A stretch of DNA of 64,000 bases from assembly GCA_013177825.1 (NCBI GenBank), contig JABLXX010000002.1:558001-622000 (forward strand). The letters run 5' to 3'. The stretch is from Syntrophaceae bacterium (GTDB lineage Bacteria > Desulfobacterota > Syntrophia > Syntrophales > PHBD01). The notes beneath the pieces are model-generated. The model saw nothing but the letters and a program-made list of their open reading frames with translations. It did no database searches and was not told the DNA's origin. Position numbers and translations under genes: made by a program. Of the stretch, positions 49,758-56,041 are shown piece by piece. How positions within the stretch are numbered: the first letter of the stretch is position 1; each line of letters starts with the position of its first letter.

Positions 49758-50816
49758 ATGGAAAAATACATGGATGCCGATAAAAGGACGACCGCAGCCG
49801 AGGCGATCGGGCGTTTTGTCAACGACGGGGAGTCTTTCGTTTTTGCAAATTGCCTCTATTGCATGCCCCTCGCGCTCACCCATGAGCTGATCCGCCAGGG
49901 CAAGAGGAACCTGATGGCCTTCCAGCAGGGCGGAATCGAAGAAATCGACCAGCTGGTCCTGAGCAAGGTGATCGACCGTCTCGTTCTGGCCTACAATTTC
50001 AGGGCCGGCGGCCCCCGCATCGTAAGCCCGCTCGATCGTGCCATAAAAGAGGGTCAGGTTGCCGTCGAGGAAATGACAAACCACACGCTCCTGTCCATGA
50101 TGAAGGCCGGGGCCATGGGGTATCCCTTCCTGCCGGTCCTGCCGGGCATCAAGGTGACGGACGTGGTGAAACGGAACGGATTCATGGGGAATCAGCGGTT
50201 CGCCCGGCTCCCGGATCCTTTCACGGGGAAAGACACCCTGGTCGTCAAGGGCTTCAATCCCGATTTCGCCCTGATTCACGTCCAGCGAGCCGACCGGGCC
50301 GGAAACGGGCAGCTCTGGGGCGCCATGATCAACAGCAAGTGGGCGGCCCTGGCGGCAAAGAAAGTAATCCTTTCGTGCGAAGAGATCGTCGACACGGAGG
50401 TGATCATGTCCTCACCCCACCTGACGATCGTTCCCTCCCACAAGGTCTGCGCCGTCGTCGAGTGCCCCTGGGGCGCCCATCCCTCGGAGGTGCTGGGGCA
50501 TTACGACTATGATTTCCCCTTCCGGGTCCTGTTCGTCGGGTCCGCCGCCAACCCGGATGCGGCGAAGTTCTGGCTCGACGAATGGATCCACAAGGTGAAG
50601 GACCGCGACGAGTATATCGAGCATTATGTAAAGAGGTTCGGAAGGGATACGCTCGAAGCGTTCCGGGCCAGGCCGTTCAAGAGTGTCCCGGCCGATTACG
50701 GTTCAACGTTCTCCCGGGACTGGGATGATCAGGGATACTCGAGGAGCATGGGCATGACCATGCAGGAATTCGTTGCCATGCTGGACGCGAAAGGAGCGCT
50801 GATCGATGGGAACTAG
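49758..50816 (+). CDS. CoA-transferase family I, alpha subunit
   Basis: 352 residues, longer than typical (about 290) because of a C-terminal helical extension (about 280-352). Motifs of the glutaconate CoA-transferase/IpdA-like alpha subunit are seen: FQQGGIEEID and VEEMTNHTLLSMMKAGAMGYPFLPV, where Glu104/Glu105 matches the conserved active-site region, plus DFALIHVQRADRAGNGQ. The ATG follows AAAGGAGG. It overlaps the beta-subunit gene by 11 bp. It is the first gene after the sigma-54 promoter and would activate the cluster's organic acid substrate. Confidence 0.88.
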   Translation: MEKYMDADKRTTAAEAIGRFVNDGESFVFANCLYCMPLALTHELIRQGKRNLMAFQQGGIEEIDQLVLSKVIDRLVLAYNFRAGGPRIVSPLDRAIKEGQVAVEEMTNHTLLSMMKAGAMGYPFLPVLPGIKVTDVVKRNGFMGNQRFARLPDPFTGKDTLVVKGFNPDFALIHVQRADRAGNGQLWGAMINSKWAALAAKKVILSCEEIVDTEVIMSSPHLTIVPSHKVCAVVECPWGAHPSEVLGHYDYDFPFRVLFVGSAANPDAAKFWLDEWIHKVKDRDEYIEHYVKRFGRDTLEAFRARPFKSVPADYGSTFSRDWDDQGYSRSMGMTMQEFVAMLDAKGALIDGN

Positions 50817-51624
50817 ATTCACGATCCAGGAGCTGATCGTCTCGCGGGCCGCCAAGGAACTGAAGGACAGGGAATTCGTCGTGATCGGCCAGGGGATTGC
50901 CATGGCCGCGGGCGTCCTGGCAAGGAGGACCCACGCCCCCAACGCCGTGATCCTCACCGAGGCGGGCCTCCTGGGGATCGATCCCTTCAAGGTCCCGCTC
51001 CACATCGCCGATCCCACCTGCACCCGGGGATTCACCTATTCGTGCGACATGATCGACATCTTCACCACGGTCCTGAACCAGGGCTACGTGGACGTAACCT
51101 TTCTCGGTGTCGGCCAGATCGACCGCTTCGGCAACATGAACAGCAGCTACCTGGGCGAGCCGGGCAACTACACGACCCGCATGACCGGTGCAGGGGGAGC
51201 CCCCGAGTTCATCGGCTACGCCGGCCGGGCCATTCTCACCATGAGCGGCGGCACCTTCGTGGAAAAACTGGACTACTTCACCTCTCCCGGGTATCTGGAA
51301 GGCGGCGACTCGCGTTACGCGGCGGGGATGCCCGAAGGATCGGGGCCCAGTGTGCTCATTACGACCCGGGGCGTCTTCAGGTTCGACGAGGTCACGAAGG
51401 AAATGTACCTGGCGGGGCTCCACCCCGGGGTGACGGTCGATGAGATCCGGGCCGAGGTGCCCTGGAACCTGAAGATTGCCGACCGGCTGGAAACGACACC
51501 GGCACCGACGGAAGAAGAGCTCGCCATTCTCCGCAGCTTCGCTCCGGACATCACCATGGGGCGGAAGCTGCAGCTCGAGGTCGTGATGAAGCAGGTTATC
51601 AACCTTCTTTCGAAAGGAGCGTGA
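50806..51624 (+). CDS. CoA-transferase family I, beta subunit (catalytic Glu present)
   Basis: 272 residues. The beta-subunit nucleophile region reads VILTEAGLLG, so the catalytic Glu is retained. GVGQIDRFGNMNSS and MSGGTFVEKLDYFTSPGYL are family motifs. It overlaps the alpha subunit by 11 bp and is 4 bp from the next gene. It should form a working heteromeric CoA-transferase with the 49758 product. Confidence 0.88.
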   Translation: MGTRFTIQELIVSRAAKELKDREFVVIGQGIAMAAGVLARRTHAPNAVILTEAGLLGIDPFKVPLHIADPTCTRGFTYSCDMIDIFTTVLNQGYVDVTFLGVGQIDRFGNMNSSYLGEPGNYTTRMTGAGGAPEFIGYAGRAILTMSGGTFVEKLDYFTSPGYLEGGDSRYAAGMPEGSGPSVLITTRGVFRFDEVTKEMYLAGLHPGVTVDEIRAEVPWNLKIADRLETTPAPTEEELAILRSFAPDITMGRKLQLEVVMKQVINLLSKGA

Positions 51625-51628
51625 CCGC

Positions 51629-52618
51629 ATGACGGAAGGGAAGAAGACGAATCGGCCGTACAGGATTATCGACGCGCTTTGCTATGTACCCACGGAAGAA
51701 GTCGTTCTGGATCTTCCCGTCTCCCTGCCTCCCCAGATGGCCCCCTACCTCAGGAACGTTTTCGGGCCGCGGGTGGCCCCACTGATGGGGATCACCGCGG
51801 ATGAATTTTACCGGATGAAGATCACGTTGAGTCAGGAGGAACTGCGGAAGGCCCTGGCGCCGAAGATGAAATTCATGTCCATGAAGCTGGAGGATTTCGT
51901 CCGGCAGCTGGACGAGATGGGCGTGGAAAAGGCGGTCATCTTCAACCTGGATGAAGAAACGCCCGGCGGGCTGAAGGGGCTGCCCAACGACTACTATGCC
52001 GATGTTGTCAAACAGTACCCGGATCGGTTCATCGGCATGGCCGGGATCGATCCCCTGAAGGGCATGGCGGCGGTGCGGGAGATCCGGCGCATTTACGATC
52101 TGGGCCTGCGCGGGATCGGAGTCCGGCCGTTCATGTTCGGCATTCCGCCCCATCATGCAAAGATGTATCCCCTTTACTCCACCTGCGTTGAGCTCGACAT
52201 CCCCGTCTGGTTCCATACGGGGATCAACTACTCCACCAACAACATGGAGGTGGAGAGGCCGGTTTACTTCGACATCGTGGCGCAGGATTTCCCCGAGCTC
52301 AAGATCATCGCCGGCCACGGCGGCTGGCCCTGGGTTCCGGAGATGATGGCCGTGGTCCGGCGGAACGAAAACGTGTATATCGACATCTCCTCTATCGATC
52401 CGCGGTATCTCGGGATGCCCGGCTCGGGATGGGAGACCCTGATGCAGCTGGGAAACTCCGTCCTCCAGGACAAGATCCTGTTCGGCTCAACCTGGCTGTT
52501 CATGGGGCGAACGATCAGGCAACTGGCCGACGGCATCATGGACCTGCCGCTGAAGGAGACGGTCAAGCACAAGTGGCTGTACGGCAATGCGGCCCGCCTG
52601 TTCGGGCTGTCGGCATGA
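51629..52618 (+). CDS. Amidohydrolase-fold (PF04909-like) protein with degenerate metal site
   Basis: 329 residues, TIM-barrel of the amidohydrolase-2/ACMSD type. The fold is clear (VEKAVIFNL, IGMAGIDPLKGM, GIGVRPFMFGIPP, VWFHTGIN, IIAGHGGWPWVPEMM, YGNAARLFGL). The N-terminal HxH metal motif is replaced by IDALCYV, and the late Asp of FGSD by FGSTW. Either the protein works without metal, perhaps as a decarboxylase or hydratase with another base, or it has lost activity. AAAGGAG precedes the ATG. It follows the first CoA-transferase pair. Confidence 0.82.
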   Translation: MTEGKKTNRPYRIIDALCYVPTEEVVLDLPVSLPPQMAPYLRNVFGPRVAPLMGITADEFYRMKITLSQEELRKALAPKMKFMSMKLEDFVRQLDEMGVEKAVIFNLDEETPGGLKGLPNDYYADVVKQYPDRFIGMAGIDPLKGMAAVREIRRIYDLGLRGIGVRPFMFGIPPHHAKMYPLYSTCVELDIPVWFHTGINYSTNNMEVERPVYFDIVAQDFPELKIIAGHGGWPWVPEMMAVVRRNENVYIDISSIDPRYLGMPGSGWETLMQLGNSVLQDKILFGSTWLFMGRTIRQLADGIMDLPLKETVKHKWLYGNAARLFGLSA

Positions 52619-52764: not shown

Positions 52765-53622
52765 ATGAAAGACAAACTCATGACCGCGGCCGAAGCGGCC
52801 CGGATGGTGGAAGACGGGATGCACCTCGGTGTCGGTGCCGGGATGGCGATGAATCCCATGCCGGTGATCCGGGAGATCCTCCGGAACGGCATCCGCGGGC
52901 TCACCCTGACGCCTGTCCTGACGGGGGGATACGTGACGGATCTCCTCATCGGCGCCGGGGCCGTGGAGACAATCCAGTTCCCCCAGATCGTCCTCGACGA
53001 GTTCGGGCTGGCCCCCCATTTCCGCAAATGGGCGGAAGCAGGCCGGCTCAAGCTCCTGGAGACCATGTGACCGGCCCTGCTCCTGGGGCTCCAGGCTGGA
53101 GCCCATCAATTGCCGTTCATCCCCGTCATCGGTTTTCTGGGGACGGACTACATGAAAATCCGGGACGATTTCAAGGTCGTCAAGGATCCCTATTCGGGTG
53201 AGGACTATGTCGTGGTTCCGCCCATCATCCCGGATGTCGCGGTTATCCACGGCCTCAAGGGAGACCGGTTCGGCGGTGTTACGGTCCTGGGCGCCCGGAA
53301 CGATCGGCTGCTGGCCACGGCAGCCCGAAAGACCATCGCCGTCATCGAGGATCTGGTCGAACCAGGCGAGGTTCTGCCCGGCCTCCAGGAGGTTTACGTG
53401 GCGCCTGTGCACGTCGACGCAGTCGTCGTGGCGCCCGGCGGGGCCCACCCCACGGAATGCCCGGGCCGCTACGAAATCGACGCCGGCCACATCATGACCT
53501 ACCTCACCGCCGCGAAGGACGAGGCCTCTTTTCAGAATTACCTGGAGACGTACATCACGGGACCGGCGGATCACGAGGCTTACCTGGAGAAGGTCGGCTT
53601 CAGACCCTCGGAATGGAAGTAG
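52765..53622 (+). CDS. CoA-transferase alpha-like subunit with in-frame TGA (candidate selenoprotein)
   Basis: 285 residues if the TGA at 53068-53070 is read through. Both halves (residues 1-101 and 103-285) are in the same frame and align with CoA-transferase alpha subunits on either side of the stop. Aligned with the cluster's other alpha subunit, the TGA stands three residues after the conserved Glu99 (LLETM-stop-PALLLGLQAGA versus VEEMTNHTLLSMMKAGA). An 8-bp hairpin with a GGC loop begins 15 bases after the TGA, fitting bacterial SECIS geometry. Alternatively a recent nonsense mutation has broken the gene. The beta partner follows at 53674. AGGAGAGGA precedes the ATG. Confidence 0.7.
53086..53104 (+). 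promoter_or_regulatory. SECIS-like hairpin after in-frame TGA
   Basis: Perfect 8-bp stem GGGCTCCA/TGGAGCCC with loop GGC (53094-53096). The loop begins 23 bases after the TGA and starts with G, both within the published bacterial SECIS consensus as I recall it (distance 16-37, G in the first two loop bases). Confidence 0.45.
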
Positions 53623-53673: not shown

Positions 53674-54411
53674 ATGGGAAGCAGCCAGACAGAATCCTTC
53701 GAAAAGATGATCGGCGCCATCTCCCGGCTCCTGAAAAACGGCGAGATGGTCGTGACGGGCACGCTGTCCCCCCTCCCGGCGGCAGGTTGCCTCCTGGCCA
53801 AACATACCCACGCCCCGGACCTGGAGCCCATGCTCTATGGCGATCCGGAGAACCGGCTTTCCGAGGGGCTCCACGAGTTCTTCGGGGTTGCCCAGAAGGG
53901 GAAGGTGGACGTGTTCTTCCTCTCGGGCCTTCAGATCGACCGGCAAGGCAGCATCAACCTGTCGGTCATCGGAGATTATGACCATCCCAAACTGCGCCTG
54001 CCGGGAGGCGCGGGATCAGCCATGCTCTATTCCATGAGCCGGCGGACCATCCTCTTCACCATGACGCACACGAAGAAGCTTTTTGTGCCGAAGGTGGATT
54101 TCGTCAATGCCGCCGCTTTTGACGGCGAGACCAGGACCCCCTGGCGGCGCGGCGGCCTGTCCCACGTCGTCACGCCCCTGTGTGTCATGAAATTCGACGA
54201 AGATAGGAAGCGGGTCGTCCTGGATTCGCTCTTACCAGGAGTGACGCTCGATCAGGTCGTGGAAAACACGGGATTCGACCTGGACGTGGCGGGAAGGGAA
54301 ATCCCCGTCATGGAGCCGCTGACGGAGGAGGAGCAGAGTGCCCTGCGGGGGCCGGTCCTGGAGAAGATGAGGACGATCTATCCCCTGGTGTGCCGGATGA
54401 TCTGGGGGTAG
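53674..54411 (+). CDS. CoA-transferase beta-like subunit lacking the catalytic Glu
   Basis: 245 residues, aligned with the 50806 product over its length (LLAKHTHAPDLEP against VLARRTHAPNAV; GLQIDRQGSINLSVIG against GVGQIDRFGNMNSSYLG). Where the first pair has LTEAGLLG this protein reads LYGDPENRL, so the nucleophilic Glu is not conserved. This resembles hydrolase-like members such as IpdB rather than true transferases. It forms a pair with the TGA-containing alpha-like subunit. AGAGAGGGAAAC precedes the ATG. Confidence 0.82.
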   Translation: MGSSQTESFEKMIGAISRLLKNGEMVVTGTLSPLPAAGCLLAKHTHAPDLEPMLYGDPENRLSEGLHEFFGVAQKGKVDVFFLSGLQIDRQGSINLSVIGDYDHPKLRLPGGAGSAMLYSMSRRTILFTMTHTKKLFVPKVDFVNAAAFDGETRTPWRRGGLSHVVTPLCVMKFDEDRKRVVLDSLLPGVTLDQVVENTGFDLDVAGREIPVMEPLTEEEQSALRGPVLEKMRTIYPLVCRMIWG

Positions 54412-54598: not shown

Positions 54599-56041
54599 GT
54601 GGCGACAACGCGTGACTGGGGAAAATCCGTCCGTCGGATGGAACAGCTGCTGCGCTTGAAGACGTTTCCCGTGGCATTCAAGCTCCTGGAGAATCGGGCC
54701 GATTTGTCCGCCATTCCGTACATGCGGAGGGTGGGCCACAAATCGACCCTCTGTCAGCTCATCAACCTCGTTCGCAGCTTCGACTGGACCGTCGGGGCAG
54801 ACGACACGGACATGGTGGGCCCGATGTGCACGTCCATCATCGGCCTGACCGGCATGCCGGAATTCCTCAGGGACGGGACGTTCCGGAGCATCATCTGGAC
54901 CAAGACGAGGCGGGATGGAGAAAAGTACGAAAACGCCGTTCCCCGGATCCCGCCCGGGAAGTACCAGGCTGTCGCCATGGCGCCCCTGGCCTACAACCCC
55001 TTCGATCCGGACCTGATCCTCATCTACGCCAATCCGGCCCAGATGATCCTCCTGATCAACGCCCTCCAGTTCGAAGACTACGAGGTGATGCAGTTCTTCT
55101 GCGTGGGCGAGTCCTCCTGTTCCGATGCCATCGCCCGCTGCCATCTCACCGGCAGGCCCTCCCTCACCATTCCGTGCTTCGGAGAGCGACGCTACGGCCA
55201 CACCCAGGACGACGAACTGGTCATGGCCCTGCCGCCTGCAATGCTCGACAAGGCCGTCGACGGCCTGGAGACCCTTTACAAGCGCGGGATCCGTTATCCC
55301 ATCAGCATGGCCGGGGCGGAACTGGACCTGGGGCGCGCACTTCCCGGCGCTTACGCGACCGGGCCGGCCATGATCGAGGGAATCCGAAGCAGCACGGCCC
55401 TTCTGCTGGGCGTCACGGGAAGCATCGCCACAGGCAAGTCGACGGTGTCCCGCATGCTGGAGGAACTGGGATCGCCCCTGATCGACTTCGACGTCCTGGC
55501 CCGGATCGTGGTCGAACCGGGTCAGCCCGCCCTGAAGGACATCGCCGCGTATTTCGGCAGCCAGGTTCTCCAGGAAGACGGCGCCCTGGACCGCAAGAAA
55601 CTGTCCGAGATCATCTTCACCGATATGGAGAAGCGCAAAAAGCTGGAAAGCTTCGTACACCCTCGGATCGGTGAGGCCTTCATGAAACAGGTGCAGGAGC
55701 ACGCGCTGCGAAATCCCGACGCGATCATCCAGGTGGCGGTACCCCTGCTCATCGAGACCAACATGAATTTCATGTTCGACAAGCTGCTGCTCGTCTATAC
55801 GCCCCCGGAAGAACAGGCGAGGCGGCTGATGGAACGCGACGGAGTCAATCAGGAGATGGCCGCAGCCATGGTGGGCTCCCAGATGTCCGTCGAGGAAAAG
55901 AAAAGCTACGTGGATTTCGTGATCGACAACTCCGGCGCGCCGGAGGAGACTCGCAGGCAGGTGGAGGACAACTGGATGACCCTGCAGGAGTTGCAGAGGG
56001 AAAAGGCTCAGCGGATCAAGGAACGAAAGGAAACCTCATGA
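54599..56041 (+). CDS. DUF169 protein fused to dephospho-CoA kinase (CoaE)
   Basis: 480 residues. Residues 1-260 match DUF169, with conserved cysteines (MCTSIIGL, VGESSCSDAIARC). Residues about 266-470 are a complete dephospho-CoA kinase domain: P-loop GVTGSIATGKST at 271-282, LIDFDVLAR, VHPRIGEAF and VPLLIETNMNFMFDKLLLV. CoaE makes the last step of CoA synthesis; linking it to DUF169 inside a CoA-transferase cluster is unusual. The start is GTG with AGGGAGGACTGAA upstream. It overlaps the next gene by ATGA. Confidence 0.85.
   Translation: MATTRDWGKSVRRMEQLLRLKTFPVAFKLLENRADLSAIPYMRRVGHKSTLCQLINLVRSFDWTVGADDTDMVGPMCTSIIGLTGMPEFLRDGTFRSIIWTKTRRDGEKYENAVPRIPPGKYQAVAMAPLAYNPFDPDLILIYANPAQMILLINALQFEDYEVMQFFCVGESSCSDAIARCHLTGRPSLTIPCFGERRYGHTQDDELVMALPPAMLDKAVDGLETLYKRGIRYPISMAGAELDLGRALPGAYATGPAMIEGIRSSTALLLGVTGSIATGKSTVSRMLEELGSPLIDFDVLARIVVEPGQPALKDIAAYFGSQVLQEDGALDRKKLSEIIFTDMEKRKKLESFVHPRIGEAFMKQVQEHALRNPDAIIQVAVPLLIETNMNFMFDKLLLVYTPPEEQARRLMERDGVNQEMAAAMVGSQMSVEEKKSYVDFVIDNSGAPEETRRQVEDNWMTLQELQREKAQRIKERKETS

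Follow-up and report, generated by a model that had tools for sequence, protein, structure and literature searches.

Does a TGA codon in the middle of a CoA-transferase-like alpha subunit gene end the protein, mark a damaged gene, or specify selenocysteine (Sec)? The question is raised by a gene at positions 52765-53622 (+) of the window, by which we mean the whole 64,000-nucleotide stretch of Syntrophaceae DNA that was analysed. A preliminary description of this locus had proposed either Sec near the active site or a Cys codon mutated to TGA. Our comparisons strongly support the view that the gene encodes a selenoprotein in which UGA codon 102 is decoded as Sec, and we regard this as nearly certain. 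What the residue would do in the enzyme is a separate matter, on which our conclusions are more guarded.

The gene and its reading frame

The frame contains one internal stop, the TGA at 53068-53070 (+), with 101 residues upstream and 183 downstream before a terminal TAG. The preliminary description gave the two stretches as 101 and 184 codons; the first figure stands, and the second corresponds to 183 residues plus the stop. Read through the TGA, the product is an alpha subunit of 285 aa with U102, and its Pfam match to CoA_trans (PF01144) is unbroken over that codon (residues 6-222, E 3.8e-20). Alignment with the paralogous glutaconate-CoA-transferase-like alpha subunit at 49758-50816 (+), which contains no Sec, gave 29% identity, in agreement with the earlier observation that both halves align with this paralogue and that the TGA is the only disruption. 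Equally, the conserved Glu said to lie three codons before the TGA is Glu99, and this position is acidic in all sequences of a 30-row alignment. Other frames joined by a TGA occur in the window, and most of them look like neighbouring genes in a common frame.

The TGA codon among relatives

In a first search of 60 relatives a clear orthologue was found in nine genomes, the window's own included (45-100% identity), and each of the nine contained exactly one internal stop, a TGA; among the matches listed at 36% identity or below there was no internal stop. We then extended the search to the class (155 genomes), a phylum sample (395 genomes) and the class of a Rokubacteria metagenome-assembled genome (MAG; 95 genomes). 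TGA occupied the same codon in 55 of 55 genomes read, which belong to the Syntrophales, other Desulfobacterota and the Rokubacteria (35-96% identity), in contexts including LETMUPALLLGLQAG, LDHTUPGLLAGLQAG and DNTUGVMYSMVQAG. Nearly all of these orthologues had no further internal stop. Among the named members are MAGs of the Syntrophaceae and Rokubacteriota, and one of the 55 genomes (G472) is a single-contig assembly. No relatives were found in the viral contigs searched. One other TGA, in L173, was rejected as a Sec codon: it is off-site, and the frame of L173 looks disrupted.

A one-base change of TGC or TGT to TGA, leaving a dead or misread gene, would look alike in any one genome, and this was the second option of the preliminary description. 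However, the presence of TGA at one codon in 55 genomes excludes sequencing error, decay or a lesion in a Cys codon, and dN/dS past the TGA was 0.08-0.22, against 0.10-0.22 before it (window gene versus seven orthologues). A nonsense mutation, pseudogene or sequencing error is consequently of negligible probability. The codons downstream of the TGA are, judging by these ratios, under purifying selection. Within the first 13 of them the synonymous difference was 0.04-0.35, compared with 0.48-0.69 for the whole downstream stretch, although the former figure comes from a short stretch and from the six comparisons in which it showed divergence. Such lower synonymous divergence next to the TGA would be predicted by an RNA element that overlaps the code.

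The same 13 codons bear on the possibility that the TGA is a true stop, after which translation restarts to yield an alpha subunit split into two polypeptides. A TTG-started ORF of 170 aa at 53110 could serve as the second part, but a start there would skip the 13 codons that follow the TGA, and the peptide they encode (PALLLGLQAGAHQ) is conserved. Moreover, the homologues with Cys or Glu are single chains, and the cut would part helix 102-113 of the structural model from its preceding strand. We therefore consider a split subunit very improbable.

The alignment of homologues, a check proposed at the outset, placed TGA or Cys at the position in relatives. Cys is present in a Nitrospinota MAG (L072, 50% identity; KDHTCPALL) and in the more distant L074 (Methylococcaceae), L115 and L175, and Glu in the more distant homologues L082, L083, L116-L118, L121 and L125. 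A maximum-likelihood tree of 65 sequences, unrooted and with several long deep branches, joined the Sec and Cys forms in one group (support 91/90), with the Glu forms outside. L082 and L083, which come from the same order, carry a related alpha subunit whose residue at the Sec position is Glu (IEESELTIGVGL) and are possible IpdA-like enzymes.

Hairpin and selenocysteine machinery

The preliminary description had also pointed to a stem-loop at the distance expected of a bacterial SECIS (bSECIS) element. This hairpin, at 53086-53104 (+) and 23 nt from the UGA, has an 8-bp stem (53086-53093 paired with 53097-53104), an apical GGC loop (53094-53096) and an energy of -14.0 kcal/mol, and it satisfies the bSECIS constraints that we took from PMC13188914. 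Folding of a 63-nt stretch as a single sequence gave a z of -1.16, with 28 of 200 shuffles as good. Since fold energy alone is unremarkable, the case for the hairpin rests on comparison across species. Its centre lies at a constant distance in nearly all of 54 distinct sequences, and a strict ungapped test found the bSECIS rules satisfied in 44 of them; the strict ungapped hairpin was weaker than -7.5 kcal/mol in 10/54. In an alignment of 30 sequences, 87% of pair cells were paired and both sides had changed in five of the eight pairs. Cells changed on both sides numbered 17 versus 3.4 in shuffles (0/500), and covariation was 0.326 versus 0.146 shuffled (0/500), where 0/500 is not a p-value because the shuffles ignore relatedness. 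Sliding the partner by 1-3 columns, a control that preserves relatedness, removed most of the covariation signal (0.071 or less). Thus, the hairpin was not only confirmed as described but also found to be conserved with compensatory changes.

All four of the genes that the preliminary description had suggested looking for, selA, selB, selC and selD, were found in the host genome, the completeness of which is 100% by the tool's estimate. The matches comprise selB (363 bits), selA (605.7 bits), a tRNA-Sec with anticodon tca, and a selD that itself holds one TGA; this selD (G000:C2:171816-172742) is probably a Sec gene in its own right. selD was present in all Sec-form genomes tested, as fragments only in G126 and G315, and a tRNA-Sec match above cut-off was obtained in 4/4 of the Rokubacteria genomes first found. 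For the Cys form of the Methylococcaceae (L074), whose genome may be incomplete, neither tRNA-Sec nor selD gave a match above the curated cut-offs. We rejected an alternative genetic code, since the neighbouring gene at 51629-52618 ends normally at a TGA and selA, selB, selC and selD are present. Decoding of UGA codon 102 would proceed through tRNA-Sec and SelB, guided by the hairpin 3' of the codon.

The active site and the beta partner

Modelling of the alpha subunit with AlphaFold2 (mean pLDDT 93.9) places residue 102 at the opening of a helix (102-113) that is preceded by a strand (96-99). Among solved structures, its best matches are IpdA (Z 36.6, rmsd 1.7), GctA (Z 35.0) and AibA (Z 32.1). 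Sequence alignment sets Sec102 against Glu105 of IpdA without gaps in the region; the facing residue, a Glu in 6CO6, is an Ala in 6COJ, an entry entitled 'IpdAB E105A COCHEA-COA complex'. We take Glu105 to be the catalytic residue of IpdA, as this title also suggests. By homology, Sec102 would be located in the active site, and the original wording of Sec near the active site can be made more precise, as the position of IpdA Glu105. Elsewhere the position holds Gln (GctA), Gly (AibA) or Asn (the 49758 paralogue). Taken jointly, Sec decoding and this placement in the active site appear very likely.

The beta subunit of the pair (245 aa) is encoded at 53674-54411 (+), and a beta gene adjoins alpha in most Sec loci; L155 and L156 have a Sec alpha with no recognisable adjoining beta gene. 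These two belong, with L139-L143, to a family of the phylum sample (f27) that has a Sec-containing alpha. In L159/L076 (G119) alpha and beta lie in one open frame, the junction apparently having been lost, either naturally or as an assembly artefact. The paralogous beta at 50806-51624 (+) keeps the motif ILTEAGLLG, matched in the alignment to the catalytic Glu of GctB. At the corresponding place the partner of the Sec subunit has HAPDLEPMLYG followed by a deletion, with no Glu, and the same loss is seen in the other lineages aligned. The residue opposite Cys56 of AibB is Tyr in the window's beta and Ile in the Rokubacteria, judging by an inspection by eye of the aligned loop.

The fold and alpha-beta organization of a class I CoA transferase are thus present, and the beta catalytic Glu (Glu54 in GctB) is not. 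Judged by its residues, the putative Sec enzyme lacks the defining feature of class I CoA transferases, and its layout resembles that of IpdAB with Sec in place of Glu. Because the beta partner has lost the transferase Glu, the label CoA-transferase-like in the preliminary description refers to a fold rather than to a shown activity. The product would be the alpha partner in an alpha-beta enzyme with this fold, to which IpdAB is nearest. With Sec102 at the place held by Glu105 in IpdA, and with the Glu of beta lost, it is likely that the catalytic group has shifted to alpha as in IpdAB, with Sec (or Cys) instead of Glu.

Gene surroundings were compared at 35 loci. Beyond the alpha-beta pair, recurring neighbours were limited to a lineage or were housekeeping genes only; as the neighbours vary by lineage, no pathway can be assigned. 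In the window an amidohydrolase (PF04909; 51629-52618, +) lies between two alpha-beta pairs, and this arrangement of amidohydrolase and second pair (49758-52618) was found in three loci only, L061 and L145 among them. Directly 3' of beta is an ORF (54599-56041, +) in which DUF169 and dephospho-CoA kinase (CoaE) are fused, and a similar ORF occurs in L061 (6728-8314).

Possible roles of the selenocysteine

If Sec102 acts as a covalent nucleophile, its selenolate, acidic and capped by a helix, would attack an acyl-CoA or 3-oxoacyl-CoA at its carbonyl, and the resulting selenoester would be hydrolysed or handed to an acceptor. The exchange of Sec with Cys at this site favors a nucleophile, although the site of Glu105 would suit a base equally. 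We give Sec as a covalent nucleophile on acyl-CoA an even chance, the highest among the roles considered here. The fuller proposal, a non-redox selenoenzyme in which a Sec nucleophile within a CoA-transferase fold forms an acyl-selenoenzyme (selenoester), is offered more tentatively.

Sec could instead be a general base that replaces Glu105 of IpdA in a hydrolysis of C-C bonds of the IpdAB type. The shared site fits such a role, and the pKa of a selenol is nearer to that of a carboxylate than the pKa of a thiol is; the exchange with Cys in several lineages argues in the other direction, Cys being a typical nucleophile, and on balance we find a general base somewhat unlikely. A redox role, e.g. 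in the reduction of CoA disulfides or peroxides, would agree with the fact that the majority of known selenoproteins are redox proteins (PMC13188914). However, neither a CxxU nor a UxxC motif is conserved in the aligned sequences, and the sole widely shared Cys (C232) is shared by glutaconate CoA-transferase and by some homologues without Sec, so that redox activity seems improbable.

Relation to known systems

The closest known system is IpdAB, a hydrolase that cleaves the ring of COCHEA-CoA (PDB 6CO6, 6COJ, 6CON). The alpha subunits share their fold at 30% identity, the active residue is at the same position in alpha, and both beta subunits are without the CoA-transferase Glu. The systems differ in having Glu105 in IpdAB and Sec or Cys here, and in the shortened active-site segment of the Sec partner's beta. 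Moreover, no steroid-degradation cluster was recognised among the annotated neighbours. In IpdAB the beta Glu is replaced by Gly57, and transferase activity was not detected (PMC5380842). The class I CoA transferase GctAB (PDB 1POI) resembles the Sec enzyme in fold, alpha-beta organization and Pfam family, but its beta Glu54 is absent from the Sec partner and its alpha has Gln at the Sec position. The decarboxylase AibAB (PDB 5MZW) is a further case of this fold repurposed for another reaction, and AibB shares stretches with the Sec-partner beta; in contrast, its beta Cys is not kept in the latter and AibA has Gly where Sec would be.

The family shares the use of UGA with a bSECIS, the Sec/Cys exchange and an occurrence in Sec-rich phyla (Desulfobacterota, Methylomirabilota) with the selenoproteins catalogued in 2026 (PMC13188914). 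That catalogue comprises 119 prokaryotic families and subfamilies, and neither a CoA transferase nor PF01144 appears in its full table. No report of a Sec-containing CoA transferase was found in our literature search, and the deep-Sep paper contains no CoA term. As cited in PMC13188914, a groundwater MAG survey (Deng et al. 2026) lists unvalidated candidates and includes a Methylomirabilota MAG with 63 predicted selenoprotein genes; it is possible that this survey holds an independent prediction of the present family.

In conclusion, our best reading is a new family of selenoproteins, acyl-CoA enzymes that resemble IpdAB but carry Sec instead of Glu in alpha, probably as a covalent nucleophile. 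This would add a widespread selenoprotein family to an enzyme class in which Sec was unlisted. Annotations of the Desulfobacterota and Rokubacteria probably list such genes as pseudogenes or truncated fragments. If the proposed shift of the catalytic group is true, one fold would harbour several alternative catalytic solutions, namely a beta Glu in the transferases, a beta Cys in AibAB, an alpha Glu in IpdAB and an alpha Sec or Cys in the present enzymes, and if Sec is indeed the nucleophile, its chemistry would extend from redox reactions to acyl-CoA catalysis. With Glu, Cys and Sec each occurring at this site, these enzymes would allow a direct test of what is gained with selenium over sulphur and over a carboxylate.
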